Below, piece after piece: positions 1 to 29,518 of a stretch of 36,651 bases of DNA (the stretch's first letter is position 1; every line of letters starts with the position of its first letter). The notes beneath the pieces were generated by a model. That model worked only from the letters and a program-made list of their open reading frames with translations. It had not been told where the DNA came from and ran no database searches. Source of the DNA: a virus; the IMG/VR virus record IMGVR_UViG_3300030427_000104, positions 1-36,651 of that record; one strand, given 5' to 3'. Made by a program: the position numbers and the translations under genes.

Positions 1-267
1 CTAAGCCGTCCTCGTTTTTTTATCAACCTTTAATTCATTTTTACCATCCTGAAATCCCATCTTATAAACCTTTTCTAGTTGTATCATATTCGCTAATGAA
101 ATTAGCTCTTCACATTCTCCGAGCAGTTTACCGTTGCCAATTATTCTTATTATTTTGTTTTCCGTCACTCTGATTTTTTTAACGTAATTTCTGTATTCAT
201 GGTCATTCATAACCTCTTTAAAAGCGTCAATATTTATCCGTTCATCCATATTTTTCAGTTTTGTCAT
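1..267 (-). CDS. Hypothetical 88-residue protein
   Basis: I do not recognise a family. The protein is charged and mostly helical in appearance, with no signal peptide, membrane segment or cysteine pair. The frame stays open upstream to a TTG at 294, but an AGGAGAG ribosome site lies 8 bases before the ATG at 267, so that start (MTKLKNMDER) is preferred. The TAG stop is the first three bases of the window. It lies beyond the Spo0E-like operon in the same orientation, separated by about 370 bases that carry a plus-strand promoter, so it is probably a separate unit. It may be the first chromosomal or last phage gene. Confidence 0.6.
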   Translation of the reverse strand: MTKLKNMDERINIDAFKEVMNDHEYRNYVKKIRVTENKIIRIIGNGKLLGECEELISLANMIQLEKVYKMGFQDGKNELKVDKKTRTA

Positions 268-335
268 TAATTCATCTCTCCTCATTATTGCCAATTAATT
301 AATTGCATGAAACGCAACTTCTCAATATTTACCTC

Positions 336-633: not shown

Positions 634-933
634 TCAATTCTGCATTCTTTGCCTAACCAGTTTCTTTTCTCTATATGGCTCCTTCTTGCCAATCGGCATT
701 AATGACTGAGCTATCAGTCCGTCTTCCCCTTCCAAAACCCTATATTTCTCGCCGTTAAACTGGAACATTTCACCGGCATTCAGCCCCGACTCGTCCAACC
801 CGGACACCATGCTTATTTTGCGCCTGTGCCATGTCTCCCCCTCATCGTCACTGACATTAACTTCAATCAGAACATTTGCGTCATCCATAAATTCATTCTT
901 GAATTGATCTTCTTCCTCCTTTATCTTTTTCAT
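634..933 (-). CDS. Hypothetical 99-residue protein, second gene of Spo0E-like operon
   Basis: No family recognised. The protein is acidic in its first half (KEEEDQFKNEF, VSDDEGETW) and basic at the end (KKEPYREKKLVRQRMQ), with no membrane segment or metal motif. It starts inside the last codons of the Spo0E-like gene: the ATG overlaps the upstream TGA (ATGA). A GGAGG lies about 9 bases before the ATG. Translational coupling and a shared promoter mean the two should be made together. A role linked to the phosphatase is a guess from position only. Confidence 0.65.
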   Translation of the reverse strand: MKKIKEEEDQFKNEFMDDANVLIEVNVSDDEGETWHRRKISMVSGLDESGLNAGEMFQFNGEKYRVLEGEDGLIAQSLMPIGKKEPYREKKLVRQRMQN

Positions 934-1091
934 ACTCCTAACCCTCCCATTTCGTGATACTGATTAAGCAGTTTATCCAAGCATTGGCTCAAATTAATTA
1001 GCTCCCTGTCCACAAAGCTTTTAGCACAAGAGTATGTGTTTAGCCCTTGACGTGGATCCTCGATTAGCCATAATAAATCTTTCTCCAACAT
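930..1091 (-). CDS. Spo0E-like aspartyl-phosphate phosphatase
   Basis: This 53-residue protein has the two-helix Spo0E pattern. The diagnostic segment is LINLSQCLDKLLNQYHE near residues 32-48, matching the family's 'SQELD' signature with Cys in place of Glu. Spo0E-family proteins remove phosphate from Spo0A~P and so block entry into sporulation. Length is typical of the small members. The ATG at 1091 has an AAGGGGG site about 8 bases upstream. The gene is first in a two-gene operon whose promoter is overlapped by a LexA-like palindrome at 1123-1150. The E-to-C change lies in the signature, and I cannot say whether activity is kept. The family call rests on the motif, length and spacing. Confidence 0.8.
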   Translation of the reverse strand: MLEKDLLWLIEDPRQGLNTYSCAKSFVDRELINLSQCLDKLLNQYHEMGGLGV

Positions 1092-1122
1092 AATTTCGCC
1101 CCCTTAAGAACATTCATTTGTC

Positions 1123-1150
1123 TTATAATAGAACCTGTGTTCTATTATAA
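1123..1150 (-). promoter_or_regulatory. LexA-type (SOS) box in a perfect 12-4-12 palindrome
   Basis: TTATAATAGAAC (1123-1134) and its exact complement GTTCTATTATAA (1139-1150) flank a 4-base spacer. The core reads GAAC-N4-GTTC, the Gram-positive LexA/DinR box. It sits on a minus-strand promoter: TTGTTA (complement of 1148-1153), 17 bases, TATTAT (complement of 1125-1130), so a bound protein would cover the promoter. The operon begins at 1091. The nearby XRE protein at 1201 could be the binder instead. Confidence 0.6.
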
Positions 1151-1200
1151 CAAGGGGTATCCTGTCGAAGGGTTATATTTATATTTTGTCGAATCGAACT

Positions 1201-1395
1201 TCATTCCAATTCATTAAGATTAACACCTAGTGCAAAGGCGATTCTGCTCAACGTTTTAAAATGCGGTTTCTTTAACTTCTCCTCTATACGACTGAGGTAA
1301 CTAACGCTTATTCCTGCCCTCTCTGCCAGTTCTTTTTGCGTCAGGTTTTGTGCCTGGCGCAATTTTGCTATGTTTTTGCCAATCAATGCTGTCAA
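1201..1395 (-). CDS. XRE-family (Cro/CI-type) regulator
   Basis: This 64-residue protein is essentially one helix-turn-helix domain: IAKLRQAQNLTQKELAERAG is helices 1-2 and ISVSYLSRIEEKLKKPHF the recognition helix and turn. There is no C-terminal peptidase or oligomerisation domain, so it is not a self-cleaving CI repressor. Starts are TTG only: 1395 lies too near its AGGAC site, while the TTG at 1386 has it about 9 bases upstream and is the likelier start. It faces a second small XRE gene at 1598, an arrangement like a miniature repressor/antirepressor switch. Confidence 0.85.
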   Translation of the reverse strand: MTALIGKNIAKLRQAQNLTQKELAERAGISVSYLSRIEEKLKKPHFKTLSRIAFALGVNLNELE

Positions 1396-1597: not shown

Positions 1598-1789
1598 GTG
1601 AATCGTATCAAGGAAATCTTAAAAGAACTAGATATGACCCAGGAGGAACTCTCTCACCGCTCCGGAGTTCCACAGCCAGAAATCAGCCGAATAGCCAATA
1701 ATAAGAAAATAAAGATCGAACTAGGAACCGGTATTAAGATTGCACGAGGGCTCGGTAAGCCGGTACAGTATGTTTTTCCTGACTATTAA
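1598..1789 (+). CDS. XRE-family regulator, 63 residues
   Basis: A single helix-turn-helix domain: MNRIKEILKELDMTQEELSH, then SGVPQPEISRIANNK as the recognition segment, ending GKPVQYVFPDY. The family ending (position of a conserved 'V..LF') is typical of YozG/Cro-like repressors. GTG start at 1598 with AGGCGGG 7 bases upstream. It is transcribed away from the XRE gene at 1201 and is followed within two bases by a terminator, so it forms a one-gene unit. Confidence 0.85.
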   Translation: MNRIKEILKELDMTQEELSHRSGVPQPEISRIANNKKIKIELGTGIKIARGLGKPVQYVFPDY

Positions 1790-13834: not shown

Positions 13835-15800
13835 ACGCTACGCGCCTCTTTTCCTGATCTCGCCGGTTCATTACGCGATCAACAATTCCTTCAAATTCAG
13901 ATTTTGCTTTTTCCAAGAGAGGTGCAATTTCTTCCTTGTTTCCCCCACTAATATGAAAGTGAAAGGTGAATTCATTTTTGGCAGCATTGTTCCCACTAGA
14001 ATCATTAAGTGCCCTTTTTTTTGCACCTAATAAAGAAATAGCACTGTTGTTAGGTATTATCTGACTTCCCCCTGGTGCATTGATAATCTCTGGGCCTTCT
14101 TCGCCGACCCACGTCAGGCCCCCACGCCAGTCATCAGTCCCGCCAGCGTTTTCACCTACAGCGTCATTGCTCTTTAAGGCGTTGTAAGAATCTCTATTGG
14201 CTGAGACTTCTTTATCTTCAGCATCGGTACCATTCCACTTCGTTAGCCATTTCCATGCTTTTTCGATTGCTCCTGTAACTGAATCCCAATTTTTCACAAG
14301 CGCATATATACCAGCTCCAAGAACTGCCAGGGCTATAATAACTACTCCAATTGGGTTTGCGGTCAGTGCTGCATTGAAAGCCCACTGAGCTGCCGCAATT
14401 ACTCCTAGTCCAACCGAACCGCTTTCCATTGCTACCAGATGTCCCCACTGTGCTGCCGTTGCAATTCCTACTATGATATTATGAGCAGTCATTGCTCCTG
14501 TGTGGATATTTTGGGCAATCGTTACTGCTGTTGTAGCCACTTTGGATGCCAATAGAGTCGCCTCATAAGTCACATAAACCGCTGCGATTGTCCCAACTGC
14601 CGCTACTACTAAGGGTGCATTATCCGTAACTACATTCATAGCATAACTAATCTCATTTTTTATTGCTGGCATATTGGTGTTAATCCATCCTGAGAATTCA
14701 TTCATTTTGGGCATTATCTGCTCACCTAATGGAAGAAGTATGCCTGTTTCAAGGTTTCGTTTTATGCCTTGCGCGGCTTCACCAAAAGTGTTGTATTTTA
14801 CGGAGTTTATTTTCCCGAGAGCATCCACAGACTTGCTTATTTCGCCTTCGGTATTCATTAGGGCCTTGACACCCTTTACACCAAGATCTTCCCACTGGGT
14901 ACCAAACAGAGCAACTCCAGCGGCATTCTGAGCTACTGGATCCTTCATTTCAAAAAGTGCCTTGGTTGTTTTATCGAAAGCCGCCTTTCCTGTTTCCCCA
15001 CCTGCTGCAAATGCTGCAGTCATTTTGCTAGCGTTCAGGCCTAACGCCTCGAATCCTTCTGCAGAAGTTTTACTTCCATCTTTAGATCGGATACCGAACT
15101 CCTTGATAGCATCGGCGGCGAGATCCAGGTCACGAATTCCTGATTGAGAGGCATTAGAAAGCATATTGAACATTTCTTCGGCACTAAACCCTTGGGCCGC
15201 GAACGTACCGCTATATTCATTAAGAGTGTCAAGGAGGTCTCCGTTAGAATCTAGGCCCCATTGGGCACCTTGGGCTATAAGGTTATATGCTGTGTCTCCG
15301 TCCATCCCAAACTGCTTCATGAGTTGATTGGCTGATTTAACACTGTCTGCAACCTCTAGGCCGAACGTGTCATTTAGTGCTAGACCATCTTCGGTGACTT
15401 TCTTGAGCGCATCCCCGGCAAGCCCTGTCTGTTGGCTAACAGTGGTCATGGCCGCTCCGATATCCGCAAAGTTCTCGCCAAAATTGTCATTGTAAATCGC
15501 AAGCATAGTGTCTTTCATGCTGCCCATCATTTCATCAGCTACACCCGTCGCAGATTGTACTCCATTAAGAGACTTTTGTAGATTGTCACTTAGGTTAACT
15601 GCTAATCCTCCAACAGCTAACCCGGTCGCTCCGGCTGCTAAAGCAGCCCCACCGAACGCCAATCCGATTTTAGTCCCTATTCTATCTGAGCGCTCTTGTA
15701 ATTGCTCAAGTCGTTGATTTGCATTCTGAAATGTTGAATTAAATGATGAGTTTACTTTACCTGCTAGCTGAAAGGCTATCTCGAACATTTTTCCGGCCAT
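13827..15800 (-). CDS. Tail tape measure protein
   Basis: 657 residues of the TP901/P2 gpT type: N-terminal coiled coil (NSSFNSTFQNANQRLEQLQE), Gly/Ala-rich hydrophobic segment (about 45-70), the conserved central region (AAGVALFGTQWEDLGVKGVK near 300), hydrophobic stretches around 395-500 and a Gly/Asn-rich C-terminus. It sets tail length and is ejected with DNA. It is short for the family, so the tail should be relatively short. It starts 5 bases after the frameshifted chaperone stop. Confidence 0.92.
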   Translation of the reverse strand: MAGKMFEIAFQLAGKVNSSFNSTFQNANQRLEQLQERSDRIGTKIGLAFGGAALAAGATGLAVGGLAVNLSDNLQKSLNGVQSATGVADEMMGSMKDTMLAIYNDNFGENFADIGAAMTTVSQQTGLAGDALKKVTEDGLALNDTFGLEVADSVKSANQLMKQFGMDGDTAYNLIAQGAQWGLDSNGDLLDTLNEYSGTFAAQGFSAEEMFNMLSNASQSGIRDLDLAADAIKEFGIRSKDGSKTSAEGFEALGLNASKMTAAFAAGGETGKAAFDKTTKALFEMKDPVAQNAAGVALFGTQWEDLGVKGVKALMNTEGEISKSVDALGKINSVKYNTFGEAAQGIKRNLETGILLPLGEQIMPKMNEFSGWINTNMPAIKNEISYAMNVVTDNAPLVVAAVGTIAAVYVTYEATLLASKVATTAVTIAQNIHTGAMTAHNIIVGIATAAQWGHLVAMESGSVGLGVIAAAQWAFNAALTANPIGVVIIALAVLGAGIYALVKNWDSVTGAIEKAWKWLTKWNGTDAEDKEVSANRDSYNALKSNDAVGENAGGTDDWRGGLTWVGEEGPEIINAPGGSQIIPNNSAISLLGAKKRALNDSSGNNAAKNEFTFHFHISGGNKEEIAPLLEKAKSEFEGIVDRVMNRRDQEKRRVAYG

Positions 15801-15804
15801 AATA

Positions 15805-16229
15805 TCACCTCTTGCAAATGCGCTCGACGGAATTGGACCAAGCGTTTAGTTCCTCAAGCGTTAATGATAGCCAATAAGTTACGGGTGTATATGTTTCAGT
15901 AGCCAATCTTATTGCAGCGTTACGGAGGGTGTCGTCGAAGTCTCCGCCGATCCCCCATCGAGTAAAAAATTTTGAGTATGCAAGGTTACCTGTGTGAAAT
16001 CCTTTGCTTTGAGTAACAAAATTAAGTCCACGGGGACCTTTGCTGCCTTAGCTGCTACCACAGCTTGATAGGTTTTCGAGAACTCGGCCACTGCAGATTT
16101 ATCACCGAGAGCCTTTGCTTCTTTTGTCGCATTAATTAGGTCTTGCCCTGATAGTTCTTCAAGATCGAGGACTAACTTTTTGTATTCCACGTCATCATAC
16201 GTGGTTGGTTTTAATAATTTAATTTCCAT
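15805..16229 (-). CDS. Tail assembly chaperone, -1 frameshift fusion product
   Basis: The 0 frame from 16229 changes frame at U-UUU-UUA (minus-strand bases 15969-15963), then reads 52 codons beginning TRWGIGGDFDDTLRNAAIRL, through TYWLSLTLEELNAWSNS, to a TGA at 15805. The heptamer is in register: AAT-TTT-TTA in the zero frame. This mirrors E/E+E' of P2 and G/GT of lambda, where the minor fusion recruits tail protein to the tape measure. The extension ends just before the tape measure ATG. Efficiency cannot be judged from sequence. Confidence 0.8.
15909..16229 (-). CDS. Tail assembly chaperone (gpE-like), zero-frame product
   Basis: 106 residues beginning MEIKLLKPTTYDDVEYKKLV and rich in short helices (LEELSGQDLINATKEAKALG), as in P2 gpE-type chaperones. 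ATG 16229 has AAAGG upstream; the longer frame from 16268 runs back into the terminator-like hairpin and is rejected. It lies between the tube gene and the tape measure, the fixed place of this gene in contractile and siphovirus tails. Overlaps the fusion product described separately. Confidence 0.85.
   Translation of the reverse strand: MEIKLLKPTTYDDVEYKKLVLDLEELSGQDLINATKEAKALGDKSAVAEFSKTYQAVVAAKAAKVPVDLILLLKAKDFTQVTLHTQNFLLDGGSAETSTTPSVTLQ
15963..15969 (-). other. Slippery site U-UUU-UUA
   Basis: On the minus strand the bases read TTTTTTA, with zero-frame codons AAT TTT TTA, the exact heptamer pattern for -1 slippage. The -1 frame then stays open for 52 codons. Downstream GC-rich bases (GGGGGATCGGCGGAG) might form a stimulating structure. 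Confidence 0.8.
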
Positions 16230-16249
16230 ATATAACAACCTTTCACAAT

Positions 16250-16286
16250 AAACAAACCCGTTGCACATATTACAACGAGTTTGTTT
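16250..16286 (-). terminator. 14-bp hairpin between tail tube and chaperone genes
   Basis: Bases 16250-16263 pair with 16273-16286 with one mismatch and a 9-base loop. There is little T run after it on the minus strand, so it may act as an attenuator or RNA-stability element that lets tube protein exceed chaperone. Confidence 0.6.
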
Positions 16287-16292
16287 AGTATT

Positions 16293-16820
16293 TTATAGTC
16301 CAAGTGCCTTCCTGATATCTTTGAGGTAGTCTACACCATCGATTATGCAGATATAATTGAGTTTGTCTAACTCAACAACTACATTGCCAGCGATGCTAAT
16401 CTTGATATACAGCACTTCGAGCGTGCTTTTCGACCCCGATGTTGCGCCTACTTCGAATTTCCCAAGCTCTGTTGAAACAGGGATTCCTTGAACCACTATT
16501 TTTACAGGGCGAATAACATATCCTCCTGTACCAGAGTCATAATCCTGAAAACCACCGCGAAGGTCTAACCGTTGTGCCTGTTGCCTCATTAATGATACAA
16601 CATTTTTTTCAATAGTTCGCCACGTTATTCCAACTTGCATTGCCCCGAAATGTCCTAACGTAGGACTATCATATTCGCCAGCCATCCCGGCACCCTTGAC
16701 AGTCTCTTTCATATTTTCGAATTTCGGCAACTCAATATCAACAGTGCCTTTCATATCAATGGAACCATCCAGATAAGCACGGAAACCGGTTAATCGCTCA
16801 GGTAATGTGTTAATACTCAA
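16293..16820 (-). CDS. Major tail tube protein (P2 FII-type)
   Basis: 175 residues: MSINTLPERLTGFRAYLDGS, DIELPKFENMKETVKGAGMA and LEVLYIKISIAGNVVVELDK are characteristic of the FII family. It polymerises into the inner tube under the sheath. It follows the sheath gene by 15 bases and is closed by a hairpin. Confidence 0.93.
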   Translation of the reverse strand: MSINTLPERLTGFRAYLDGSIDMKGTVDIELPKFENMKETVKGAGMAGEYDSPTLGHFGAMQVGITWRTIEKNVVSLMRQQAQRLDLRGGFQDYDSGTGGYVIRPVKIVVQGIPVSTELGKFEVGATSGSKSTLEVLYIKISIAGNVVVELDKLNYICIIDGVDYLKDIRKALGL

Positions 16821-16835
16821 TTATTTCACCCCCTC

Positions 16836-18296
16836 TTACGCAGCAAACAGCGCGCTAAAATAGTTAACGTCGAATTCGAGGACAAATTCCATGTCCTCAG
16901 CCGGTACCGGCGGCGTGAGGTGTACGTGGAATTTAACAATGCCATTGAGTAGGTTAGTGACAGGATTCTCTTCTTGCAGGAATTCCACTCGACCACCAAG
17001 CAAAGCTCCCCTGGCGGTTAATCCGTTTAGCCAAATGTTCAGGCTATCCACCACCGTATCAATGAGTCGATTATTCGTGGGGTCATCAACCTTCTGCCAG
17101 AACGTCAAGATAATCGTATTACCAACCCAGTTGAACATCCTGCGAACAGGAATAAAACTATCCTTAATGTCGGTATTACCTGGATAGGCTCCGGTCCTGT
17201 TCCCCCAGAGTTTCCAACCACCGACAAAGTTCAAGGCCGTCACGATGCCTTCGCCATTAAGGTAAGCCGCTTGATCAGGACCCAATGAAACCTCAGCACC
17301 GCCATCTATTACCGCTGCGTTTGCTTGCAGACTTTTGTTTGACGGACTCACATACGGTAGATCGTCATTAGCCGCATCAGTTTTGCAAATTATGCCTGCC
17401 ATTTGAGTAGAGAGGTGATAAACTTCACTTCCAAGTGCTACCCGAGGCCAGCAAACAATTTGCAAGGGGTCCGTATAGTTATTGGTATTCTTCCATGCTG
17501 CGACCTCACTATAAAGGTCAGCACCGGTGGAAGTATCATCCACATCTACAATCGAAATCGCCTTAAACAACGTATTAATACTGCTTGATTTTGCCTTCAT
17601 GACCGCTGCCACCGTTGGATCATGTGACCACCCTGGCGCTAGGATCTGACCCGGTACTAGTCGAAACAAAGGGAAAACCTTATTGACAAGCTCAAGACCG
17701 GTATACGCCCCGGTAGTTGCATCAATACCCCCTATAATGTCATCGCTGTCAACCAGAGACGGGTCAAGATGAGAATAAGCTACGTTTAACTTGGTTGTTC
17801 CTTCCACGATTCCTCCTCCATCGATCGGGGTAACGATAACCTGCCCGGCATCGTCAAAGGCTGCTGTGTAATCAGTACCCTTTACCAGTGGAGCCCCTTC
17901 TAATGTCAACTTGACCACGAGGGTACTCAACAAAACACCGTCTTGTGTAATCGTTACTACTCCTTCGACGATGTTAATGTCAGCAGCAGCAACAGCCGCT
18001 TTGTGAGTCGCTGGATCAAGTACATTGATGAACACAACCGGTGCGACATTGAAGAGTGCGAAGTGTGATTTGATGAACTCACAAAGCGTATAGCTTTCCC
18101 AATCGTCAGAATATCCAAGCCCTGCAACAGCCTCAGCATAGCTGTAGGCCAACAATGGCTTGTTTACATAGTCCAAGCTAGTAGCCAAGTTGATCGGAGC
18201 CGTACCAAACACCACTGGTAAGCCTGCAGCCACTTTGGCGGGAGGTATAACTGATGTCGGTACTTCGGAGATAAAAACACCATGTTTATAGGTCAT
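16836..18296 (-). CDS. Tail sheath protein (P2 FI-type)
   Basis: 486 residues. MTYKHGVFISEVPTSVIPPA and the late GGWKLWGNRTGAYPGNTDIK, FIPVRRMFNWVGNTIILTFW and VKFHVHLTPPVPAEDMEFVL segments are the signature of contractile phage sheath proteins. It proves a myovirus-type tail. It lies between a small hypothetical gene (TAATG overlap at 18296) and the tube gene. Confidence 0.95.
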   Translation of the reverse strand: MTYKHGVFISEVPTSVIPPAKVAAGLPVVFGTAPINLATSLDYVNKPLLAYSYAEAVAGLGYSDDWESYTLCEFIKSHFALFNVAPVVFINVLDPATHKAAVAAADINIVEGVVTITQDGVLLSTLVVKLTLEGAPLVKGTDYTAAFDDAGQVIVTPIDGGGIVEGTTKLNVAYSHLDPSLVDSDDIIGGIDATTGAYTGLELVNKVFPLFRLVPGQILAPGWSHDPTVAAVMKAKSSSINTLFKAISIVDVDDTSTGADLYSEVAAWKNTNNYTDPLQIVCWPRVALGSEVYHLSTQMAGIICKTDAANDDLPYVSPSNKSLQANAAVIDGGAEVSLGPDQAAYLNGEGIVTALNFVGGWKLWGNRTGAYPGNTDIKDSFIPVRRMFNWVGNTIILTFWQKVDDPTNNRLIDTVVDSLNIWLNGLTARGALLGGRVEFLQEENPVTNLLNGIVKFHVHLTPPVPAEDMEFVLEFDVNYFSALFAA

Positions 18297-18592
18297 TATT
18301 TAGCACCTCCCTGCGCATATACTTGGATCTCTTTAAACCACAAATTTTGGGGTGTACCAGTAGTATTTACCGCCCGATTCGTCTTGTTGAGTAGGTCGGG
18401 TGGTACAAACAACCGGCGGATCGATGGACAATCGGCAATGTGCTGATCCAAATGCTTTGGAAGACTATCGCCCCTAAATACTGTGTATTGGGTTAGGATT
18501 CCTCCCTGCAAATTTGGTCCGCAATAAATCAGTTGCGTCCGTTTTACGGATCCTTGGTCGTTTTTCTTACGTGCGTGTTTAATCAAGGACAT
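18296..18592 (-). CDS. Hypothetical tail protein, 98 residues
   Basis: No named family recalled. It is basic at the start (MSLIKHARKKNDQGSVKRTQ), then LIYCGPNLQGGILTQYTVFR. Proteins of this size occur just before the sheath gene in Firmicute phages with P2-like tails. It overlaps the upstream tail-completion gene by 14 bases and the sheath by one. Role in tail-head joining is inference from place. Confidence 0.7.
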   Translation of the reverse strand: MSLIKHARKKNDQGSVKRTQLIYCGPNLQGGILTQYTVFRGDSLPKHLDQHIADCPSIRRLFVPPDLLNKTNRAVNTTGTPQNLWFKEIQVYAQGGAK

Positions 18593-19058
18593 CTTTTAGG
18601 TACCCTCCTTCCTCAACTATGTGAGGTATTGTTACTGTTAAATGCAATATTGCCAACCATTCTGGGTATAATTGTTCTTCCGGAAGCTCGGTTTTTACAG
18701 GATATTCAACCTTAAAGGCCCCAAAGAAGCGTTGCTTCATCAGGGCCTTCTTGATTCTGGTAATAACGTTCATGGCATCACGCCAGCCGTCTTGTTCGTC
18801 CTCACTGTAGGTTCCGGCGAAGATCTTGACTTTTGCAGAATTACCATCATTTTCTGTGTCAGTATCCTCCAGATATCGGATAATGACGTAAGGGAAATCT
18901 GGTATTACCTGCTTTTCTTTAGGTTTTTTCTCTTTCAGGTATCCGCTGATAACCTGGGGAGACTTTTTTACTCCCTCGACGTTCGAATCGAGCTTAAAGT
19001 CTGCTATTACTGTCTTAATAAATTCTACTAGTTTATCGACTAAAACTATTGGCGTCAT
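18579..19058 (-). CDS. Putative tail terminator / completion protein
   Basis: 159 residues. The ending PEWLAILHLTVTIPHIVEEG and the middle PYVIIRYLEDTDTEN with KVKIFAGTYSEDEQDGWRD match the general pattern of phage tail terminator (gpU/gp17-like) proteins. It lies between the gpZ-like gene and the sheath, the expected place. The family is diverse, so the call is mostly by position and layout. Confidence 0.6.
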   Translation of the reverse strand: MTPIVLVDKLVEFIKTVIADFKLDSNVEGVKKSPQVISGYLKEKKPKEKQVIPDFPYVIIRYLEDTDTENDGNSAKVKIFAGTYSEDEQDGWRDAMNVITRIKKALMKQRFFGAFKVEYPVKTELPEEQLYPEWLAILHLTVTIPHIVEEGGYLKDVLD

Positions 19059-19618
19059 GTATTCGCCCCCAGTAAACGATTGATTTCATGGTCAAGGCGT
19101 TTTTCAAACGTTACTTTAGCCTCATTTTCCACATAAATTCTTATTTTAGGCTGCCCAATCATCTCAGGAATTGAGGGTCCATACTTTATGAGCAACGGGT
19201 AGCGCGCTTTTCTTGCCCGTTTCAGCACATGCACCTTTCCCGATGATGTTCCTGCAGCCAGAAATGCGCCCGGCAACTCCTTGAATCCATTCTTTTTGAC
19301 CGCCACCCTAATAACTGCGGGTGGTTTTTTAGAATTTGGTTTTCCTGGACGTACCTTAAAGCCGATTAGTTCCCTCCTAGTATCTCGGGCGTTAACTTTC
19401 GCCATTAGTCTACTCGAACTTGCCTTTTCAATGCGAATTGTACTCCTTACCTCAGAGGCCTTAACATAATAATCTTCCCTTGTCTTACTCACAACATTAG
19501 TTCTGGCGTTTTCCACAGCTCTATTCAAAGCACGAGCTATGACTGCGGGAGCTTTTTTATGATGCTGACCCATTCTGGCCTGGATTCTTCTCACACTGAA
19601 AACGTCGATGAGAATCAC
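19055..19618 (-). CDS. Minor tail protein Z-like
   Basis: 187 residues, basic. The segment KKAPAVIARALNRAVENART and the ending IRIYVENEAKVTFEKRLDHEIN match the prophage minor tail protein Z (GPZ) family. GTG 19618 has GGAGGCG about 9 bases upstream and overlaps the preceding stop (GTGA). The frame open to 19669 is rejected. Likely acts at tail completion or the head-tail joint. Confidence 0.75.
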   Translation of the reverse strand: MILIDVFSVRRIQARMGQHHKKAPAVIARALNRAVENARTNVVSKTREDYYVKASEVRSTIRIEKASSSRLMAKVNARDTRRELIGFKVRPGKPNSKKPPAVIRVAVKKNGFKELPGAFLAAGTSSGKVHVLKRARKARYPLLIKYGPSIPEMIGQPKIRIYVENEAKVTFEKRLDHEINRLLGANT

Positions 19619-19932
19619 GTTTCGTTCGCCTCCAAGGTGATTTCCAATATTCCCATATTCTCCCCGCATTTTAGCACAAGGTGAAGATCTCCATCAATTC
19701 GCATGTGTTGTTCTGGAACTGGTCGGTCTTGCAGCTCGGAAACCTTTACGTATAACACCGCAACGTTCTCATAAACACCGTCCTGTACCTTTTGACCCTT
19801 TTGCTGGTAAACGTCGTTAACATATACGCAATTGATTTGTTGACCATCTACTTCATGGGTTTCTGCGAATTCATCTGGGTTCATGAAGACTGCTAAGTCA
19901 CTCGCTATTTGATCTTTAAATGTACTGGCCAT
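19615..19932 (-). CDS. Head-tail connector-like protein, 105 residues
   Basis: MASTFKDQIASDLAVFMNPD then EFAETHEVDGQQINCVYVND resembles head-tail joining proteins of lambda-type heads (gpFII-like: 'F..P.EFA....ING'). Overlaps the upstream and downstream genes by one to four bases. The call rests on that short pattern and place. Confidence 0.65.
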   Translation of the reverse strand: MASTFKDQIASDLAVFMNPDEFAETHEVDGQQINCVYVNDVYQQKGQKVQDGVYENVAVLYVKVSELQDRPVPEQHMRIDGDLHLVLKCGENMGILEITLEANET

Positions 19933-20366
19933 TACTCAACTACCAGAGACGCGGCGTCAAGCACAGGAGGACCTTCCTCGCCCGGATTCTGATCATCGAA
20001 TGTACCCTTGGTCACTTCAATCATTTCAATGATATCGACCTTCTTGCGAGCATTTGAAGCGTCTACTCCGTAGGCTTTGGCGATTTCCTTCAGCTCGTCG
20101 AGTTTCATATCTCCATTGTACTCAGGTAGTCCGTCGAGGTCGCCACTGCCTGAGCTTGTGTCGATATCGGCAGGATCCTTCGAAGGCTCTTGATCTTTTG
20201 TCATATCGGGAGGTTCCTGTTGTATTCCTACATAGACAGCAACGCCCCGTTCAACGAGGCGTTGCTCTTTTTCGGCTGTAGTCTCAAACGATCCATCGGC
20301 TTTGGTTTTAGGCAAGATCCTGGTGCCAACGCGGTGGCCGTATGTTCCTTGAATGATCTTGATCAT
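19932..20366 (-). CDS. Head-region protein with HeH/SAP-like C-terminus
   Basis: 144 residues. The N-terminus (IKIIQGTYGHRVGTRILPKT) is a short beta domain often found in phage proteins beside the capsid gene. An acidic linker follows. The segment MKLDELKEIAKAYGVDASNA (about residues 86-105) is an HeH/SAP-like helix-extended loop-helix. It lies just after the capsid gene with AAAGGAG upstream. Role as head-closure or packaging accessory is inference. Confidence 0.6.
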   Translation of the reverse strand: MIKIIQGTYGHRVGTRILPKTKADGSFETTAEKEQRLVERGVAVYVGIQQEPPDMTKDQEPSKDPADIDTSSGSGDLDGLPEYNGDMKLDELKEIAKAYGVDASNARKKVDIIEMIEVTKGTFDDQNPGEEGPPVLDAASLVVE

Positions 20367-20389
20367 CTCGATGCTCCTTTCTTATTCAG

Positions 20390-21457
20390 TTAAGACCGAA
20401 CCGTCGCAGAGATCCATGGGCTCTTATTATTCGGGATCAGTAACGGACAGGATGTTACTGTCAATGTTCTGGTATTACCCTCAGCGCTGGACAGATACTT
20501 TGGCACACGTCTAGCAGAGTATGTGTGGAACTGTCCATCTATCTGCTCGACCTGAGTGACTGCACCATAAAGAGTTCGTCCAGCTGCTGGAGCTGTCAAA
20601 ATTACTTTACCTGCAGGGATATACTGAGTTGCCACTCCGTTGTCCGCCTCGTACGTATCCTCATAGCTGAGGATGTCGATCATCCTGCCATTTATGTTGA
20701 ACCGTCCGATCACAGCGGCTCCAGCCGGTAGAGTAGTTGGATCGATGCTTCCGGCATTGAAATTCTTTATGTCAAGAAGCTTCTGAATTGTTGCATCATT
20801 GATAATTGTATCAGCAACATCAGGTGCAACGATCAGCTCTGAGGCAGGTAACCCTCTGGATGTTAATAGGCGGGCCATAGCCGCAATGTCCGCAATGATT
20901 TTGGCGCCAGCGGCATCCCAATCAGTATCTGGAGTATAGATTGCTGGGTTAAGGGCTTCACTATAAAAGCGGATTTCCTTCTCTTCGTACAATGTCAGGT
21001 CATCAGCGTAGTGCTTCATGACACAGGCGTTATCGAGCATAGTCTCCGCAGCCATAAGTTCCTCACGTCTAGAGATCATTTCACCCATTTCGTCGGAATC
21101 TTTCAAGAGCATCATGCTTTCACGCTGTTGTGGCGTGAGTTTGTTGAATAGGGCTTCTCCGAATCCTTTCTTCTTGAGGTCATCGATCGTTAGTACTCTG
21201 CGAGGAGCGATGAATGGAGGGGTGTATCTCTCCGTACTGTACCCTTCGCGGGTAATGGTTACGCCCCCCTTAATTGGCGATACGAACGGAGCAAGCTTCT
21301 TGCTACCATCTTTGTACTCAACTAGCACGTCGTCCGTCGAAAAGATGTCGGTCGCGTCATTCGTAGGGAAATATCTATCACGCAAAAAAGTATGGAGAGG
21401 TGTGATTTGTTCTATTGCCATGAGTAGGGAATGGGTGCTGTAAATATCAAAAGCCAT
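20390..21457 (-). CDS. Major capsid protein (lambda gpE family)
   Basis: 355 residues. ITPLHTFLRDRYFPTNDATD near the start, AQ-like EYKDGSKKLAPFVSPIKGG, and the later VIGRFNINGRMIDILSYEDT are typical of the Phage_cap_E family. It forms the icosahedral shell and is stabilised by the decoration protein made from the next upstream gene. The order protease-decoration-capsid is lambda's. Confidence 0.92.
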   Translation of the reverse strand: MAFDIYSTHSLLMAIEQITPLHTFLRDRYFPTNDATDIFSTDDVLVEYKDGSKKLAPFVSPIKGGVTITREGYSTERYTPPFIAPRRVLTIDDLKKKGFGEALFNKLTPQQRESMMLLKDSDEMGEMISRREELMAAETMLDNACVMKHYADDLTLYEEKEIRFYSEALNPAIYTPDTDWDAAGAKIIADIAAMARLLTSRGLPASELIVAPDVADTIINDATIQKLLDIKNFNAGSIDPTTLPAGAAVIGRFNINGRMIDILSYEDTYEADNGVATQYIPAGKVILTAPAAGRTLYGAVTQVEQIDGQFHTYSARRVPKYLSSAEGNTRTLTVTSCPLLIPNNKSPWISATVRS

Positions 21458-21470
21458 GTTTCATTCCTCC

Positions 21471-22076
21471 TTATATCTCGTACGCGTCAGCGAGGAAAAT
21501 ACCGAGAGCTCTCAGTTCTTCTTCGTTGGCTGCCGTCATTGTATAGCCGGTCGCAATGATCAACTGGTTACCATTGAAATACCCTGTTTTATAAGCTGTG
21601 GCCACGACTGCGGTGCTCGTTCCTGTGTCAGCATCTTCTGCGAGGATGTACTTGGCCTTTGCCATAGCTGCTACAGTGATGTCACACTCGATATCGATGC
21701 TGGTCTCGTCTTTGAGTCCACCAGCTGCCTCCAACGTAATGGTCAAAGTGCCGTTGGCATATCCTATCGTGTAGTCAGTTGTTATTGTTGCTGGGGTTGC
21801 GCTACCGGCAGCGTATACCTTTAAGGTGCTTGTGACAAGATTCGCGTTTGCATAAGTTGAGACCAACGTCTCCACTGCAAGAGTGGCTGCCACGGTCTTA
21901 TCAGAGCCGAGCAAAATGCCGTCTCCGCCTGCCGCTGTCATAGCGATGACAGACCCACGGAGGATTTTACCTTGATTAGCAGCGAGTTTAATATGACCGC
22001 CCATTGCTGCGGGACCATTTTGATTAATCAAGTTATCAAAGCCAACGCTTCCAATGTTTTCGTCAAGTCTGCCCAT
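21471..22076 (-). CDS. Head decoration protein (lambda gpD-like)
   Basis: 201 residues, longer than lambda D (110). The conserved ending KTGYFNGNQLIIATGYTMTA and the start MGRLDENIGSVGFDNLINQN belong to the HDPD family. An inserted domain in the middle (ATPATITTDYTIGYANGTLT) may be exposed on the capsid surface, as in some enlarged Firmicute homologues. The ATG overlaps the protease stop as TAATG. Confidence 0.85.
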   Translation of the reverse strand: MGRLDENIGSVGFDNLINQNGPAAMGGHIKLAANQGKILRGSVIAMTAAGGDGILLGSDKTVAATLAVETLVSTYANANLVTSTLKVYAAGSATPATITTDYTIGYANGTLTITLEAAGGLKDETSIDIECDITVAAMAKAKYILAEDADTGTSTAVVATAYKTGYFNGNQLIIATGYTMTAANEEELRALGIFLADAYEI

Positions 22077-23296
22077 TATTTCTTACCTCCGTTCTTCATT
22101 TTGTTGTATACATCCACAATCGCGTTCACTTGCTGAGCCTCGTCAGGTTCGTCATCTTGGTTCCCTGCGTTTGGTGCAGCACCGATGCCCTTGGCTCCGG
22201 AGGCATTGAAGTCATTAGCACTATTGTCGAGGTGTTGCTTGCCAAGCTGAGCCTGTTTTTGCAGAGCTTTCAAAGATAACTCGGCGGCTGTACATGGGGC
22301 ATCTCCATACTTTGCTTCAGCTACAAGTTGAGGATCGCCCACTGCGGACTCAATACTTTCAATGTCCTTGATACGGGCTCTCTCTGCTGCAATAGCCTCG
22401 GCGCTTATGGTTCCTTTGCTTGCCGCTTCTATCTGAGCTACTAGCTCAGGGTGCTGTTTTTTGAGTTCTTCCATGTCCATCGTTTTTTTGCCTCCTCCAT
22501 TAGGTTTTTCTATTCCATCCACCAGGCCTTTTGGCGCTGCAGGTAGAACGCTATTAACTGGGATGCCTTTAGGTATATTGTGTAAACCTTTTATGCTGTG
22601 CTTGATACCATTCACAAGTAGTACGCTCTTGTCAGTGCTCATGATCATTTGCGGATCAGAGCCTTCAAGTAGTTTATTGGCGAAACCCTTGTCGACAGCC
22701 TCTTTGCCCGTCATCCATGTCTCTTTTGTCATCATGGAACGAAGGGTTTCGACATCAAGTCCAGTTTTTGCGGAATAGATTTCGGCAATTGCCCTTTCAG
22801 CTGCGTCGAAACCCTTGATTACTTGCTTAAGATCCGTGATGTTGTAGTAATTATAGAATAGGGCACTTACTCCATGAATCATCACGAGACTACCGGGGTA
22901 TGTTACAACTTCGTCACCACTACACATAATGACACTCGCTGCGCTGGCCGCAATGCCTTCGACTATGACTGTCTTTGATCCTGCAAGACCCTTGATCGCG
23001 TTGTGAATCGCGATACCGGTGTAAAGATCCCCACCCACGCTATTGAGTTTGACTGTGATCTTACTTTTGCCCTTGACTGCCTCTAGATCGTCGAGGAAGC
23101 CCTCAGGGGAGATATAGAGACCAGGGAGTGCTTCGCCAGTCCAAAAATCTATTGGTTGGCTACTTACCACTTCACCGTATAGGGTAATTTCTCCCTCGTC
23201 ATCCGATACGGATGCGATGTTCCAGAACTTCGTTGCTTTGGCATGAGATCCTGGTACTGACCCATTAACCAGTCTGGGTTCTTTTCTTTTTCCCAT
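22076..23296 (-). CDS. Head maturation protease, ClpP family
   Basis: 406 residues. A ClpP-like serine protease domain fills about 35-215, with nucleophile S118 in EGIAASAASVIMCSGDE and H141 in LVMIHGVSA. A Gly/Lys-rich linker leads to an Asp/Glu/Ala-rich C-terminus (ELKKQHPELVAQIEAASKGT) that probably acts as a scaffold. It processes capsid-assembly proteins. It overlaps the portal gene by 32 bases. The catalytic Asp could not be placed with confidence. Confidence 0.92.
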   Translation of the reverse strand: MGKRKEPRLVNGSVPGSHAKATKFWNIASVSDDEGEITLYGEVVSSQPIDFWTGEALPGLYISPEGFLDDLEAVKGKSKITVKLNSVGGDLYTGIAIHNAIKGLAGSKTVIVEGIAASAASVIMCSGDEVVTYPGSLVMIHGVSALFYNYYNITDLKQVIKGFDAAERAIAEIYSAKTGLDVETLRSMMTKETWMTGKEAVDKGFANKLLEGSDPQMIMSTDKSVLLVNGIKHSIKGLHNIPKGIPVNSVLPAAPKGLVDGIEKPNGGGKKTMDMEELKKQHPELVAQIEAASKGTISAEAIAAERARIKDIESIESAVGDPQLVAEAKYGDAPCTAAELSLKALQKQAQLGKQHLDNSANDFNASGAKGIGAAPNAGNQDDEPDEAQQVNAIVDVYNKMKNGGKK

Positions 23297-24878
23297 TGTC
23301 GTCTCCTTCCTTCAATGCTTCAAGTATTACGGCTTTGATGGTATTGGCGAGCTGTGTTCCTCCGCCTTCGTTTACACCATTTGCCTCTGCAAGCTTAGTG
23401 TTTTCGCGTGCGAGTTGCTCGACGTTTGTCTCCCATTGGCCACCGTTGAGCCTGATGGTCGATTGTTCGTGAGTAGTAAAGCCCTCGCTGACTGCGAGAA
23501 TCTCAGCCGATATTTCTTTGACTGGGTCGAGTTGCCCCTGGCTTGGCCCTATCCATTCGCTACCGAGGTATGCCTTGCGCATGGTGGGGTTAGTAAAAAA
23601 ACCCGGTGCTAGTATCCGACCACGGGCAACAGCTTCAGCCATCCATACCTCGTAGATAGGACGACAGAAGTCATTAGTGAACCAAACACGCCGCATTTTG
23701 AAAGCTTTCCACGCCTCCAGCAACGCAGCACGGCTCGCCGAGTAGCTAGCATTAAACGCCTTGAGAAGCAGATCGGCCGGTACTTCAAGGGCTGCACCAA
23801 TTTGTTCACATATTGAGCGAATAAATATGTCAAATCCACCGCTCGGTCGCTTTGGATCTGCAAAGGTTACTTCCTCACCTGGCTTCATGATGTTTATCTG
23901 ACCAGGCCCCATTTCATATTCATTCGGATCATCCGAGACTTCCGAATTTCCCACTTCATTGAATGGGTTATCACCAGTTGATGCTTCTGTCTTAATGAAC
24001 GCAGTAAAGAAGCTCTCGACCACAGCTGCAGTGAGCTCACTTTCTGTATACCTCCGGAGTTGAAGCAAGGGTTCAATGACCTGTGCTAAATAACTAACGC
24101 CACGATATTGATCAGGGCGTTCCGTATCCATAATCTGCAGGATGTTTGGCAATCCGGTGAGATTCCCGTATGCCTCCACACGCTGCCACTCTGTTTTTCT
24201 GGACCAGGTTTGAAACGGATAGGTGTTGCGAATGTGATACGCGACGATCGCGCCATTAGTGTCGACCTCGACACCGTCATAGATGCTGTTGCCATTTTCA
24301 GCCTTTCCGTCTGTCATGATGGACAACATGTAGCCCCCTGGCGTACTTACTCGATCAGCTTCGATGACGTGTAGTCGCAAGTTATACGGCATAAGTTGCG
24401 TGGCTTCATATTGCTTGAATACGACGAAGGAGTCTCCGCTTAAAAGCCAGGATACAAACGCGAGCTGCTGAATGGCATAAAAGTCATTGACGCCGGTGGC
24501 ATCGCAAGCTCGTTTACTATCAGCCCATAAAGCAAACTCGGCTTCGACGTTTTTTTGCCATACTTCAGTTGCTTCAGGCGTCATTCCCAGCGCGTCACGA
24601 TTTATACGACTTTTCAGCTGAAGTCCGACACCTATGACATTGGTGCGATTGGTTTTGATTGCAGAGGTTGCCACTGGGGCGGCCATATAAAGCATCCTGG
24701 CCCGCTGGCGAAGCGTAAAGTTGTTATAATCAATGTCCTCCCGAGCGCTACCACTTTGTGCATTGAAACCTTTAGTTGCTTTCTTTTTCCAGCTCGCTCC
24801 AGCCTCTCCGTATCCTTTATTTTCCGGACGTGTTGGTACTCTTGCGTTTGGTTTTTGGTCCCTGTTGATCGATCTCAC
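23265..24878 (-). CDS. Portal protein (lambda gpB family)
   Basis: 537 residues. EDIDYNNFTLRQRARMLYMA, KTNRTNVIGVGLQLKSRIN and ALEVPADLLLKAFNASYSAS are typical of lambda-type portals. It is the dodecamer through which DNA enters. The start is odd: the only canonical start, GTG 24878, lies inside the AGGAGG ribosome site, while an in-frame ATC at 24869 sits at ideal spacing. About 60 residues of basic, flexible N-terminus precede the conserved core, so either start gives a working protein. Confidence 0.92.
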   Translation of the reverse strand: MRSINRDQKPNARVPTRPENKGYGEAGASWKKKATKGFNAQSGSAREDIDYNNFTLRQRARMLYMAAPVATSAIKTNRTNVIGVGLQLKSRINRDALGMTPEATEVWQKNVEAEFALWADSKRACDATGVNDFYAIQQLAFVSWLLSGDSFVVFKQYEATQLMPYNLRLHVIEADRVSTPGGYMLSIMTDGKAENGNSIYDGVEVDTNGAIVAYHIRNTYPFQTWSRKTEWQRVEAYGNLTGLPNILQIMDTERPDQYRGVSYLAQVIEPLLQLRRYTESELTAAVVESFFTAFIKTEASTGDNPFNEVGNSEVSDDPNEYEMGPGQINIMKPGEEVTFADPKRPSGGFDIFIRSICEQIGAALEVPADLLLKAFNASYSASRAALLEAWKAFKMRRVWFTNDFCRPIYEVWMAEAVARGRILAPGFFTNPTMRKAYLGSEWIGPSQGQLDPVKEISAEILAVSEGFTTHEQSTIRLNGGQWETNVEQLARENTKLAEANGVNEGGGTQLANTIKAVILEALKEGDDNGKKKRTQTG

Positions 24879-24883
24879 CTCCT

Positions 24884-25147
24884 TTACCAGTCGCGGAGCA
24901 CGACTCCGACTGCTCGACGCGGTTTGCCACCGATAAGTTCTGATTCCAACTCTGTGATCTCTTGCTTGAGTTCCTTGATAGCTGTTCTGATCACACTAAG
25001 ATCGGTATTGTATCTGGCCAGATTACGGGGACCGATGCCGTAACTTTGGACTCCACCGCTGAGCATTTCTTTTTCGCGGTTTCGGTAAAGGGTGTTCCTC
25101 TCCTTTGCATCTACAAGATCAGCAGTGATGACCTCTTTGGTTCGCAT
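24884..25147 (-). CDS. Head-tail joining protein gpW-like
   Basis: 87 residues. MRTKEVITADLVDAKERNTL and the Tyr/Ile-rich region GGVQSYGIGPRNLARYNTDL followed by a long helix (IRTAIKELKQEITELESELI) place it in the gpW-like group that lies between terminase and portal. ATG 25147 has AAGGAGGTG upstream; the frame open to 25171 is rejected. Confidence 0.75.
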   Translation of the reverse strand: MRTKEVITADLVDAKERNTLYRNREKEMLSGGVQSYGIGPRNLARYNTDLSVIRTAIKELKQEITELESELIGGKPRRAVGVVLRDW

Positions 25148-25167
25148 TATCGTCACCTCCTTGGCTT

Positions 25168-27060
25168 TCACCAGTCATCAGAATCACGCTGTCGACGCTT
25201 CCTTGGTTGCTGTACTGGTTTCTGTTTGGGTGTTTCCGGTACCCCTTTAATCCTCCGCTCCACAGCGTCCATATCTGGATCGATTATTTTCAGACCGGCG
25301 AGCGCATAGTTGCGGCAGTCGAGAGCTTCGTTTCTTGTATGCCCAGGAAGCTTTTCCCACGCCCAACTATTTCCAGTTTTACTTTTCTTCAGGACGAGCT
25401 TCTCCGAGAGCAGCCCATTGAAGTAATTGATATCATAGCCACGATCCTCTCCTCGAGGGAAATGACAAAATTTCGCTCCTGCCTCCTGCACCTTAAGAGC
25501 ACTCATAATTGATGACTTTCCGGCATCTACACCCAATGTATAGAGCCAACAAGTGATCTTCTTATTGTCTTTAATTGGGATCTTGGATGGTGGCCTGACG
25601 AAAGGAACACCGTCGCCACCTTTACCTTTAATAGCAAAAACACGTTTACTTTGTCTATTGCGACAAGCTTTGTAAACTTCCTGAGTATAATGACCTCCGG
25701 AGTCAACACAGGTGATCGATAGTTTAAGACCGCGTCCATTCTTGAATTTGTAGACGCGGTCAATGACATCATCCAGCCTTTCCCATACTTCTGGAGTGTC
25801 TGGCTTTCCCATGATATAACCTTTCTTAATGCCCCACGTCTCACCATATTGGCCATGGCCAATAACCTCGTACTCCAAGCGATTGTCTTGAGTATCAACG
25901 CCACAGGTGAGTACAAGTACACCGTCAGGTAATTCGGCTGGGTATTCCTCACGACGGGAAAGCATCGAATCTTCATCTTCGAGGTCTCCGCGATCTTCCC
26001 ATAGTTCTCCAAGCAAAGTGTTAAATACTACCTTTAAACGCTCCGGATCGCGTTGAGCTTCAAGGAACTTGCGGGCAATTTTGCTCCACGGCATCCAAGG
26101 TGAAGAGAAGGCATTGAGCCAGAATGACCGAACTCCATTAATGTAGGCCTCCGGGTTGTCTGCAATCCACTTAGTTGGTTGCTTGCGCATGACCCTTTCG
26201 GTTGATAAGCAGCCGCACGAGGGACAGGCCCACCCCGTTATTGTCACATAGAAGGTCTTTTTACTCTTTACCTTAACGACCTGATGGTCATATTTCACCT
26301 GATCGAATACAATACTATGCCAATCCCCACATTCAGGGCATTGGTGACACCATCGTTCTTGGGTACCCTGGTAGAATGACGTCTCAATGTTGCTGCTTCC
26401 CTTGATAGTCGGCGTCGATACCTCAATCGCCTTCGCGTTATAGAACGTTGCCTGCCTTGCCTCGGCAAGAGACCACGGGTCTCCCTCGGTTCCAGCACTC
26501 AATGCCCATCTGTCACGTTCGTCGCCGAGTATATATCGGGCCGGAGTGGATGCGAGAGCCGATGCGCTGTTCGAACCCGCAATTGTGAGCATACCACCGG
26601 GGAATGATTTCTGTAATATCGTGTTGCCACTGTCGCGCGTTTTGACATCAGCGACCTTGGCTTTTAGTGGCTTACTATCCCTGATCATTGGAGCAATACG
26701 TAACCGACTGAACTTCCTGGCATCCTCGAGCGTTGGCTGGACGAACAGGATCGAGCCGGGATCTTGATCAATGATGTACCCTATTATGTTAAGTTCGAGT
26801 TCGGACTTTCCGACTTGTGAAGCGGCCACCATTACAATCTTGTGGATATGTGGGTCAGAGAACGCCTCCATTGGCGCTTTCAGATAAGGGGTTCTTGAGG
26901 TTCTCCACGGCCCAGCCTCTGCCGAGTTTTCGGGGGAGAGGCGGCGGCTCCTGTCGGCCCATTCTGCCACGGTGAGGTCCTCGGGCGGCTTAAAGTTTTT
27001 AAGCGCACCCGAAACGGCTGTGTTCAGCCTCTCGATTTCCGGCTTATTCTTCCGGGCCAT
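25168..27060 (-). CDS. Terminase large subunit (GpA family)
   Basis: 630 residues. Walker A-like VMVAASQVGKSELE (about residues 77-90), Walker B with catalytic Glu in YILGDERDRW (about 175), a four-Cys zinc knuckle (CHQCPECGDW and CPSCG), and a C-terminal nuclease domain beginning GVDTQDNRLEYEVIGHG. It packages DNA with ATP and cuts concatemers. GpA-type terminases usually act at cos sites. No cos sequence could be identified. It overlaps the small subunit gene by 17 bases. Confidence 0.94.
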   Translation of the reverse strand: MARKNKPEIERLNTAVSGALKNFKPPEDLTVAEWADRSRRLSPENSAEAGPWRTSRTPYLKAPMEAFSDPHIHKIVMVAASQVGKSELELNIIGYIIDQDPGSILFVQPTLEDARKFSRLRIAPMIRDSKPLKAKVADVKTRDSGNTILQKSFPGGMLTIAGSNSASALASTPARYILGDERDRWALSAGTEGDPWSLAEARQATFYNAKAIEVSTPTIKGSSNIETSFYQGTQERWCHQCPECGDWHSIVFDQVKYDHQVVKVKSKKTFYVTITGWACPSCGCLSTERVMRKQPTKWIADNPEAYINGVRSFWLNAFSSPWMPWSKIARKFLEAQRDPERLKVVFNTLLGELWEDRGDLEDEDSMLSRREEYPAELPDGVLVLTCGVDTQDNRLEYEVIGHGQYGETWGIKKGYIMGKPDTPEVWERLDDVIDRVYKFKNGRGLKLSITCVDSGGHYTQEVYKACRNRQSKRVFAIKGKGGDGVPFVRPPSKIPIKDNKKITCWLYTLGVDAGKSSIMSALKVQEAGAKFCHFPRGEDRGYDINYFNGLLSEKLVLKKSKTGNSWAWEKLPGHTRNEALDCRNYALAGLKIIDPDMDAVERRIKGVPETPKQKPVQQPRKRRQRDSDDW

Positions 27061-27625
27061 CTTCCTCCAACCCTCGCCAACCTTGACGATCCCTTACCCG
27101 CCGTTTGTATTCCTCGGGATCGTAGCGATAATTAGAAAGGTCATTGAGGATGCCGTGACATTCCTGTTTGATACGACTCGATGCTTCGGCTGCAGTTGTT
27201 GTGTTAGCCATATCTATTGCAAGCCGCCCAGGCAAAGCCATGATCATGCCTCTGACCGCAAAAACAAGATCTGTCGTCATTGACTCAACGTCCTCGCTGC
27301 GGTGCATTTTACCCTCGAGCTCATTCAGCTCCAGCGCTGCCATGCCTGCTTTGCTTTCCTTTAGGTTAGCCTCAGCCTTTATTTTGCGGACTTCGATGTC
27401 AATAACTTCACCGCTCTTGGTCCCTCGATTATTGGCCTTATCGCCCAGGTACTTAATGTACCGCTGTATCGTCGTCATAAGGTCGTAGCGATTGGCACCT
27501 TTTATCTTTGTCGAGACGATGACTCCATCCTTGGTGAGCTGCTGAATCCTACGCGTCGTCACTCCAAAAAGCGGGGCGAGGATGTCGCTGCCGACCAGCT
27601 TGGGGTTTGGTTTGTTGTCCGGCAT
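27044..27625 (-). CDS. Terminase small subunit (Nu1-like)
   Basis: 193 residues. An N-terminal winged helix-turn-helix (GSDILAPLFGVTTRRIQQLT) like lambda gpNu1 binds the packaging site. A long helical region (ANLKESKAGMAALELNELEG) and the C-terminus that contacts the large subunit follow. ATG 27625 has GGAGGAGGG upstream, so the longer frame to 27646 is rejected. It is the first gene of the late head operon. Confidence 0.85.
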   Translation of the reverse strand: MPDNKPNPKLVGSDILAPLFGVTTRRIQQLTKDGVIVSTKIKGANRYDLMTTIQRYIKYLGDKANNRGTKSGEVIDIEVRKIKAEANLKESKAGMAALELNELEGKMHRSEDVESMTTDLVFAVRGMIMALPGRLAIDMANTTTAAEASSRIKQECHGILNDLSNYRYDPEEYKRRVRDRQGWRGLEEDGPEE

Positions 27626-27691
27626 CGTATCCCTCCTCCCGGACATTTGGCGAAACGAAACGCCCTAAAAAAAATTTTCTGAGTCTACACG

Positions 27692-27721
27692 TTTATCGGG
27701 GTCATTTAGCCCCGCAGTCAA
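27692..27721 (-). promoter_or_regulatory. Candidate late promoter
   Basis: On the minus strand TTGACT (27721-27716) and GATAAA (27697-27692) are 18 bases apart. A 5-bp hairpin (CGGGG 27697-27701, CCCCG 27710-27714) lies in the spacer. It sits about 70-100 bases before the small terminase and is a fair target for the RinA-like activator. Confidence 0.35.
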
Positions 27722-27767
27722 GAATCTTTGCCGGAAGTACCTTTTCTTCATTAAGGGCATTAAAAAA

Positions 27768-29473: not shown

Positions 29474-29518
29474 CAATACTTCGCCTCCTATCCATTCTAA
29501 TCCTTATCCACCCTTTAA

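Follow-up and report, generated by a model that had tools for sequence, protein, structure and literature searches.

A candidate promoter with SOS-type and Spo0A-type boxes ahead of a Spo0E-family gene at the attachment-site end of a Desulfosporosinus prophage

On balance, our analyses favor the view that a prophage of Desulfosporosinus, a spore-forming soil bacterium, has at its attachment-site end a small accessory operon that carries a predicted Spo0A~P phosphatase of the Spo0E family, would be derepressed by the SOS response, and would probably respond to Spo0A as well. The operon lies near the start of the 36,651-nucleotide IMG/VR virus record IMGVR_UViG_3300030427_000104, a provirus fragment that is referred to below as the window. 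Its promoter combines a candidate LexA-type box with the heptamer core of a Spo0A box, an arrangement conserved across related prophages. The wider claim, that this is a family of prophage promoters in the Desulfosporosinus family integrating LexA and Spo0A~P, some members of which would drive a Spo0E protein that quenches the Spo0A~P signal, is one we put forward tentatively.

Results

The element, its host, and its integration site

The window encodes a terminase with 100% identity to one from a MAG, Desulfosporosinus sp. BRH_c37. The terminase-bearing contig of this MAG matches window positions 15171-29455 at 100%, and another of its contigs (G001:C145) matches positions 1-1309 with a single mismatch. 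In this second contig, a tRNA-Trp is found 93 nt past the window edge and is followed by chromosomal genes resembling PHP-domain, TrkA-type, and FtsK-type proteins. A related prophage of Desulfosporosinus fructosivorans is located at the same tRNA-Trp and is flanked on both sides by repeats of the tRNA end (145077 and 191417). Judging from the neighborhood of the tRNA-Trp in the two genomes, the operon has the lysis genes on one side and the attachment site on the other, and the window is without the far end of the prophage. In both prophages, the tRNA-Trp site is next to a PHP-domain-like gene (G001:C145 (L172) 1402-1475; G002:C35 145077 and 191417). Elsewhere in the window, an open reading frame at 28544-29476 on the minus strand begins like a phage ParB/DNA-methylase protein and has an unrelated-looking tail; it may be the product of a fusion or a deletion. 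The hosts have both LexA and Spo0A, the latter as implied by the first-pass annotation.

The features of the operon and its control region are as follows.

1-294, minus strand: 97-aa open reading frame, the third gene, which ends at the window edge and has a 73-aa counterpart in the G042 operon described below
634-933, minus strand: 99-aa protein of unknown function, conserved behind the promoter in related prophages (open reading frame and homolog comparison)
930-1091, minus strand: 53-aa Spo0E-family protein with an ATG start and an intact S-Q-x-L-D signature, containing LINLSQCLD
1100-1104, minus strand: GGGGG, part of the ribosome-binding site AAGGGGG that precedes the ATG of the Spo0E gene, read from the sequence
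1123-1150, no strand: perfect 12-4-12 palindrome with the core GAAC-N4-GTTC at 1131-1142, candidate SOS (LexA-type) box
1125-1153, minus strand: predicted promoter of sigma-70 type, TTGTTA-17-TATTAT, whose spacer contains the SOS box (promoter scan and conservation in relatives)
1151-1159, minus strand: conserved TACCCCTTG block (CAAGGGGTA on the plus strand), from the promoter alignment
1163-1169, plus strand: Spo0A-box heptamer TGTCGAA, the copy conserved among relatives (coding strand TTCGACA)
1187-1193, plus strand: second Spo0A-box heptamer TGTCGAA (TTTTGTCGAA), found only in the window lineage
1201-1395, minus strand: 64-aa Cro/CI-type HTH protein immediately upstream of the promoter (open reading frame and profile search)
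1598-1789, plus strand: 63-aa HTH_3 protein, divergent (open reading frame and profile search)

A Spo0E-family gene coupled to a conserved 99-aa gene

The 53-aa protein belongs to the Spo0E family. The first-pass annotation had called it Spo0E-like on its LINLSQCLD motif, and the profile search agrees, with a PF09388 match of 37 bits (curated cut-off 23, E=3.5e-9) that spans residues 6-46, i.e. profile positions 1-41 of 42, and that is also returned by a six-frame search. In an alignment of the window protein with 13 Desulfosporosinus Spo0E proteins (14 sequences), Arg-14 (R14), Ser-35 (S35), Leu-38 (L38), and Asp-39 (D39) are invariant, the signature reading SQCLD in the window, and a profile built from this alignment retrieves 2c0s and 2bzb, which we take to be solved Spo0E-family structures, their depositors naming them only conserved domain proteins. 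A single-sequence AlphaFold2 model (mean pLDDT 78) is helical, mostly one long helix, and thereby differs from the two-helix hairpin of the family, which has an antiparallel two-helix fold; a proline falls within helix 1. Within the MAG, the PF09388 score of the protein ranks toward the low end, and the hosts have many Spo0E paralogues. Close relatives were found neither in IMG/VR nor in phage GenBank records, and the sole PHROGs match, to phrog_35355 (function unknown), is weak. Taken together, family membership and the retained signature make the protein a likely Spo0A~P phosphatase. A different Spo0E-like architecture was observed in a phage with a related integrase (L089 2537-2894, minus strand), where a 118-aa protein resembles Spo0E in its N-terminal part and is extended at the C terminus, and where the gene is not preceded by an SOS box.

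The stop codon of the Spo0E gene and the start codon of the 99-aa gene overlap as ATGA at 930-933, which couples the genes tightly, and the 97-aa open reading frame follows after a gap of 339 nt. The 99-aa protein has no Pfam match over the cut-off and no NCBIfam match; AlphaFold2 predicts a five-strand beta protein (pLDDT 69), for which a Foldseek comparison with the PDB and viral models returned nothing with E<=0.001.

A candidate LexA-type box of the same class as host SOS boxes

The palindrome described over the promoter by the first-pass annotation is exact: its sequence, TTATAATAGAAC-CTGT-GTTCTATTATAA, has 12-nt arms that are 100% complementary and 4 nt apart. The bare 12-nt core GAAC-N4-GTTC was rejected as evidence by itself, as its one match in the window compares with 0.49 expected and 38% of shuffles (38/100) contain one. 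On the other hand, the 26-nt extended palindrome, also with one match in the window, was found in 0 of 100 shuffles even when 3 mismatches were allowed. Boxes of this class stand before SOS genes in three Desulfosporosinus genomes, where the box before lexA reads CGAACATTTGTTTG, those before recA are CGAACAG-N3-GTTTT-like, and those before umuC-type cassettes are AATAAGAAC-N4-GTTCTTATTATA and similar sequences, two of the umuC-type genes being confirmed as IMS-family polymerases. With a matrix built from 14 such host boxes (recA, lexA, and umuC), the window box scores 16.1 bits, within the leave-one-out range of the host boxes themselves (12.1-20.3), and ranks first in the window, with 0.018 such scores expected by chance. 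The pattern AATAGAAC-N4-GTTCTATT is present in 55 viral contigs. These data support the palindrome as a candidate LexA-type box of the same class as the host SOS boxes, which is how it had been read at first pass. Across the 1309 bases compared with the MAG copy, the window differs at one base only, which belongs to the 4-nt box spacer (window position 1135; L131 171-174), the coding strand reading ACAG in the window versus ACAC in the MAG. A further observation concerns the umuC-type SOS cassettes, four of which (L185, L186, L177, L184) carry directly behind the SOS box a cysteine-rich open reading frame of 55-60 aa with C-x2-C motifs and an end in GDWA[KR]CG.

A composite promoter shared by related prophages

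An alignment of promoters revealed a further block upstream of the box, TTCGACA-N3-TACCCCTTG, which includes TACCCC, and the resulting composite promoter, TTCGACA-N3-TACCCCTTG-N8-GAAC-N4-GTTC, is common to 16 related prophage operons, whose shared ancestry means that counts among these promoters are not independent. The promoter elements TTGTTA-17-TATTAT do not rise above shuffles in a scan by themselves; their arrangement is conserved in the relatives. TTCGACA is the reverse complement of TGTCGAA, the Spo0A-box core recognized by Spo0A of Bacillus and Clostridium. It occurs in 15/16 of the prophage promoters, in one orientation throughout. When the final 160 nt of each of 18 upstream regions were counted, they contained 16 sites against 0.5 expected, an excess inflated by shared ancestry; these regions were chosen via the homologs of the 99-aa protein and not via the motif. 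The one-mismatch variant TACGACA is found in the promoter of D. fructosivorans, a species with a cultivated lysogen (63.6F) whose prophage has the box and lacks spo0E, and a pattern search that did not require TTCGACA recovered two loci (L258, L260) with ACCCCTTG and the box and without the heptamer, so that TTCGACA is frequent in these promoters and not universal. Across 46 host-family genomes, TTCGACA-N3-TACCCCTTG has 10 matches, against 0 for the reversed-pattern control, all ten being the same composite promoter in various prophages.

The heptamer also lies upstream of 10/10 host spo0A genes examined, at a distance from the start of 49-50 nt (four genes) or 92-104 nt (six genes), and likely marks Spo0A targets in these hosts. 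Each host-family genome has two to five Spo0A-type matches, and the Spo0A-type genes (L268-L277) fall into two classes, one with TGTCGAA about 49 nt before the start and the other with TTCGACA 92-104 nt before it, the latter mostly trailed by AACGTATAAT. Because a conserved Spo0A box stands just upstream of the -35 element, Spo0A~P probably acts on the prophage promoter too. The earlier reading of this promoter thus stands for the LexA-type box and had missed the conserved Spo0A-box heptamer, which is doubled in the window.

Gene content behind the promoter

Five related viruses, found via the 99-aa protein, have the HTH gene, then the box, and then directly a 99-aa homolog, and their records contain no match to the Spo0E profile. 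A search with the 99-aa alignment found homologs in 12/46 host-family genomes. The box is kept in 15/16 of the related operons, whereas the neighboring sequence and the HTH genes diverge; in the operon of G016, the box at the usual position is degraded (GAACAAGTGATC) and a perfect one (GAACGCACGTTC) is found 23 nt downstream, as expected if LexA control and not the exact position were under selection. A spo0E gene stands between the box and the 99-aa gene in only 2/16 operons, those of the window lineage and of G042. The latter (G042:C1:1144619-1145747) is a divergent element with the gene order of the window, namely HTH gene, box, Spo0E gene (PF09388, 50 bits), a homolog of 98 aa, and a third gene of 73 aa. 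No SOS box was found upstream of chromosomal spo0E (0/23 loci).

The window Spo0E shares 53% identity with L145 and that of G042 shares 52% with L142, compared with 38% between the two, so that the nearest relatives of the two phage copies are different chromosomal Spo0E proteins. In a tree of these short proteins, the window and G042 copies are united in only 5% of bootstrap trees, and the tree does not separate single from double capture. The association of the box with spo0E proposed at first pass thus holds here and in G042; the box is more widespread, and what is conserved behind it, by comparison of gene orders, is not spo0E but the neighbor listed as unknown, the 99-aa gene, which is the constant gene of the operon. 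Other prophages (L205, L213, L216, L231, L278, L279) have the full composite promoter behind a holin-like gene, with the 99-aa gene gone and no long open reading frame for about 250 nt after the promoter; these promoters are possibly relics or may serve a small RNA.

Discussion

In the mechanism that we favor, host LexA bound to the SOS box between the -35 and -10 elements would hold the operon off, and DNA damage would free it. Spo0A~P, rising on starvation, would bind the box just upstream of -35, most simply as an activator as the cell heads for sporulation; the position of the box fits this role, from which we infer the sign of the control. The Spo0E product would then dephosphorylate Spo0A~P, which would prevent sporulation and complete a negative feedback circuit. 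The product of the next gene, the conserved 99-aa protein, is perhaps an SOS-controlled antirepressor or another host-takeover factor. The antirepressor idea comes from the search for a Peptidase_S24 domain, the mark of a self-cleaving repressor, which was not found in the 36.6-kb record, an incomplete provirus; nor was the domain found in 4/5 relatives, whose records may be incomplete as well. Since the incomplete record yielded no self-cleaving repressor, we did not adopt the earlier claim that damage would at the same time induce the prophage. As to the benefit for the phage, the suggestion of the first-pass annotation that the operon would keep the host in a state able to support lysis may apply, and a delay of host sporulation as a moron function would be an equally simple alternative.

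In the main alternative, the palindrome would be the operator of a phage Cro/CI-type HTH protein (1201-1395 or 1598-1789) and not a LexA site, and spo0E would belong to the early or lysogenic genes of the phage switch. An HTH gene does immediately precede the promoter in the window, as it does in most relatives, perfect palindromes close to HTH genes are typical phage operators, and TTCGACA is also found before the HTH gene in several relatives, so that a nearby HTH protein could bind some of the promoter sites. However, the box stays the same across relatives whose HTH proteins vary, even in the region of the recognition helix. This explanation is further weakened by the boxes that have no adjacent HTH gene (L205, L216, L234, L239, L246) and by the same box class occurring at host SOS genes, among them umuC-type genes far from these phages, and we regard it as unlikely.

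Other explanations accept the promoter and concern what the Spo0E protein does. It could be the product of a moron (lysogenic conversion) gene that delays sporulation of the lysogen during growth, to the advantage of both host and prophage, and has no special role in lytic induction. The location of the operon between the lysis genes and the attachment site is a usual one for morons, the downstream genes differ among relatives, and DevI of ICEBs1 offers a precedent (PMC8032392); yet an SOS box should leave the operon largely silent in an undamaged lysogen, which makes this improbable. That the protein is degenerate or has a partner other than Spo0A, the operon being a passenger without a role in sporulation, could be argued from the proline in helix 1, from the low standing of its PF09388 score in the MAG, and from the many Spo0E paralogues of the hosts. 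We consider this very improbable, as the invariant residues are all retained, the frame is open with a strong ribosome-binding site and ATGA coupling, and a second case occupies the same place in a divergent element. An operon controlled by LexA, probably also by Spo0A~P, and encoding a likely Spo0A~P phosphatase thus remains the reading that we prefer.

Phage spo0E genes and LexA-controlled phage genes are each known. In the open-licence literature, we came across neither an account of the two combined, with a phage spo0E under SOS control, nor one of a phage promoter that has both boxes. In temperate Firmicutes phages, homologs of spo0E, rap, or abrB adjoin RRNPP quorum-sensing genes (PMC10075063), and Spo0E-like genes have been described in Geobacillus phage TP-84 (PMC10969951) and Brevibacillus phage SecTim467 (PMC4909266). 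As in the window, a Spo0E-family gene presumably steers host sporulation in these phages, but the control is proposed to be quorum sensing or is not described, as opposed to the host SOS box and Spo0A box seen here. The LexA-controlled antirepressors of the Gifsy prophages (PMC3121763) and Tum of coliphage 186 are, like the 99-aa gene product, encoded by small non-core prophage genes; no self-cleaving repressor was detected in the incomplete window record. In those systems, control by LexA is direct whereas here it is predicted; the window operon also has spo0E and a spore-forming host, and repressor binding by the 99-aa protein is only hypothetical. The Bacillus thuringiensis phage GIL01, which uses host LexA as a repressor (PMC4551915), shares with the window SOS boxes in a phage promoter and a spore-forming host but differs in that LexA acts with gp7 at the lysogenic promoter and that the switch as described includes no spo0E. 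Spo0A-binding sites at phage promoters are a feature of phi29 and its relatives (summarized in PMC9437464); in phi29, Spo0A puts the lytic cycle on hold and the phage genome becomes trapped in the spore, whereas the window operon would counter Spo0A and has an SOS box. ICEBs1 is likewise a mobile element with a small inhibitor of the Spo0A pathway, DevI, in an operon induced after DNA damage (PMC8032392). This RecA/DNA-damage induction is a feature of ICEBs1, which relies on its own repressor and not on a LexA box, and DevI is not described as a Spo0E protein. On the host side, a link between LexA and sporulation has been reported in Clostridium difficile (PMC4689574).

Sporulation offers bacteria an escape from phages. 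Catalogues of the phage genes that act against it are growing, but for most entries the timing of expression is not given. Here, the control region can be read: boxes for a DNA-damage regulator and a sporulation regulator stand in one promoter that is conserved across prophages, and the gene for a likely Spo0A~P phosphatase lies behind it in at least two divergent elements. The composite promoter and Spo0E together make a directly testable circuit, in which LexA would switch the operon off, Spo0A would switch it on, and Spo0E would feed back. The virus may in this way keep a troubled host from becoming a spore and, if true, the operon would act as a coincidence detector carried by the phage, with feedback of its own on whether the host lyses or sporulates.
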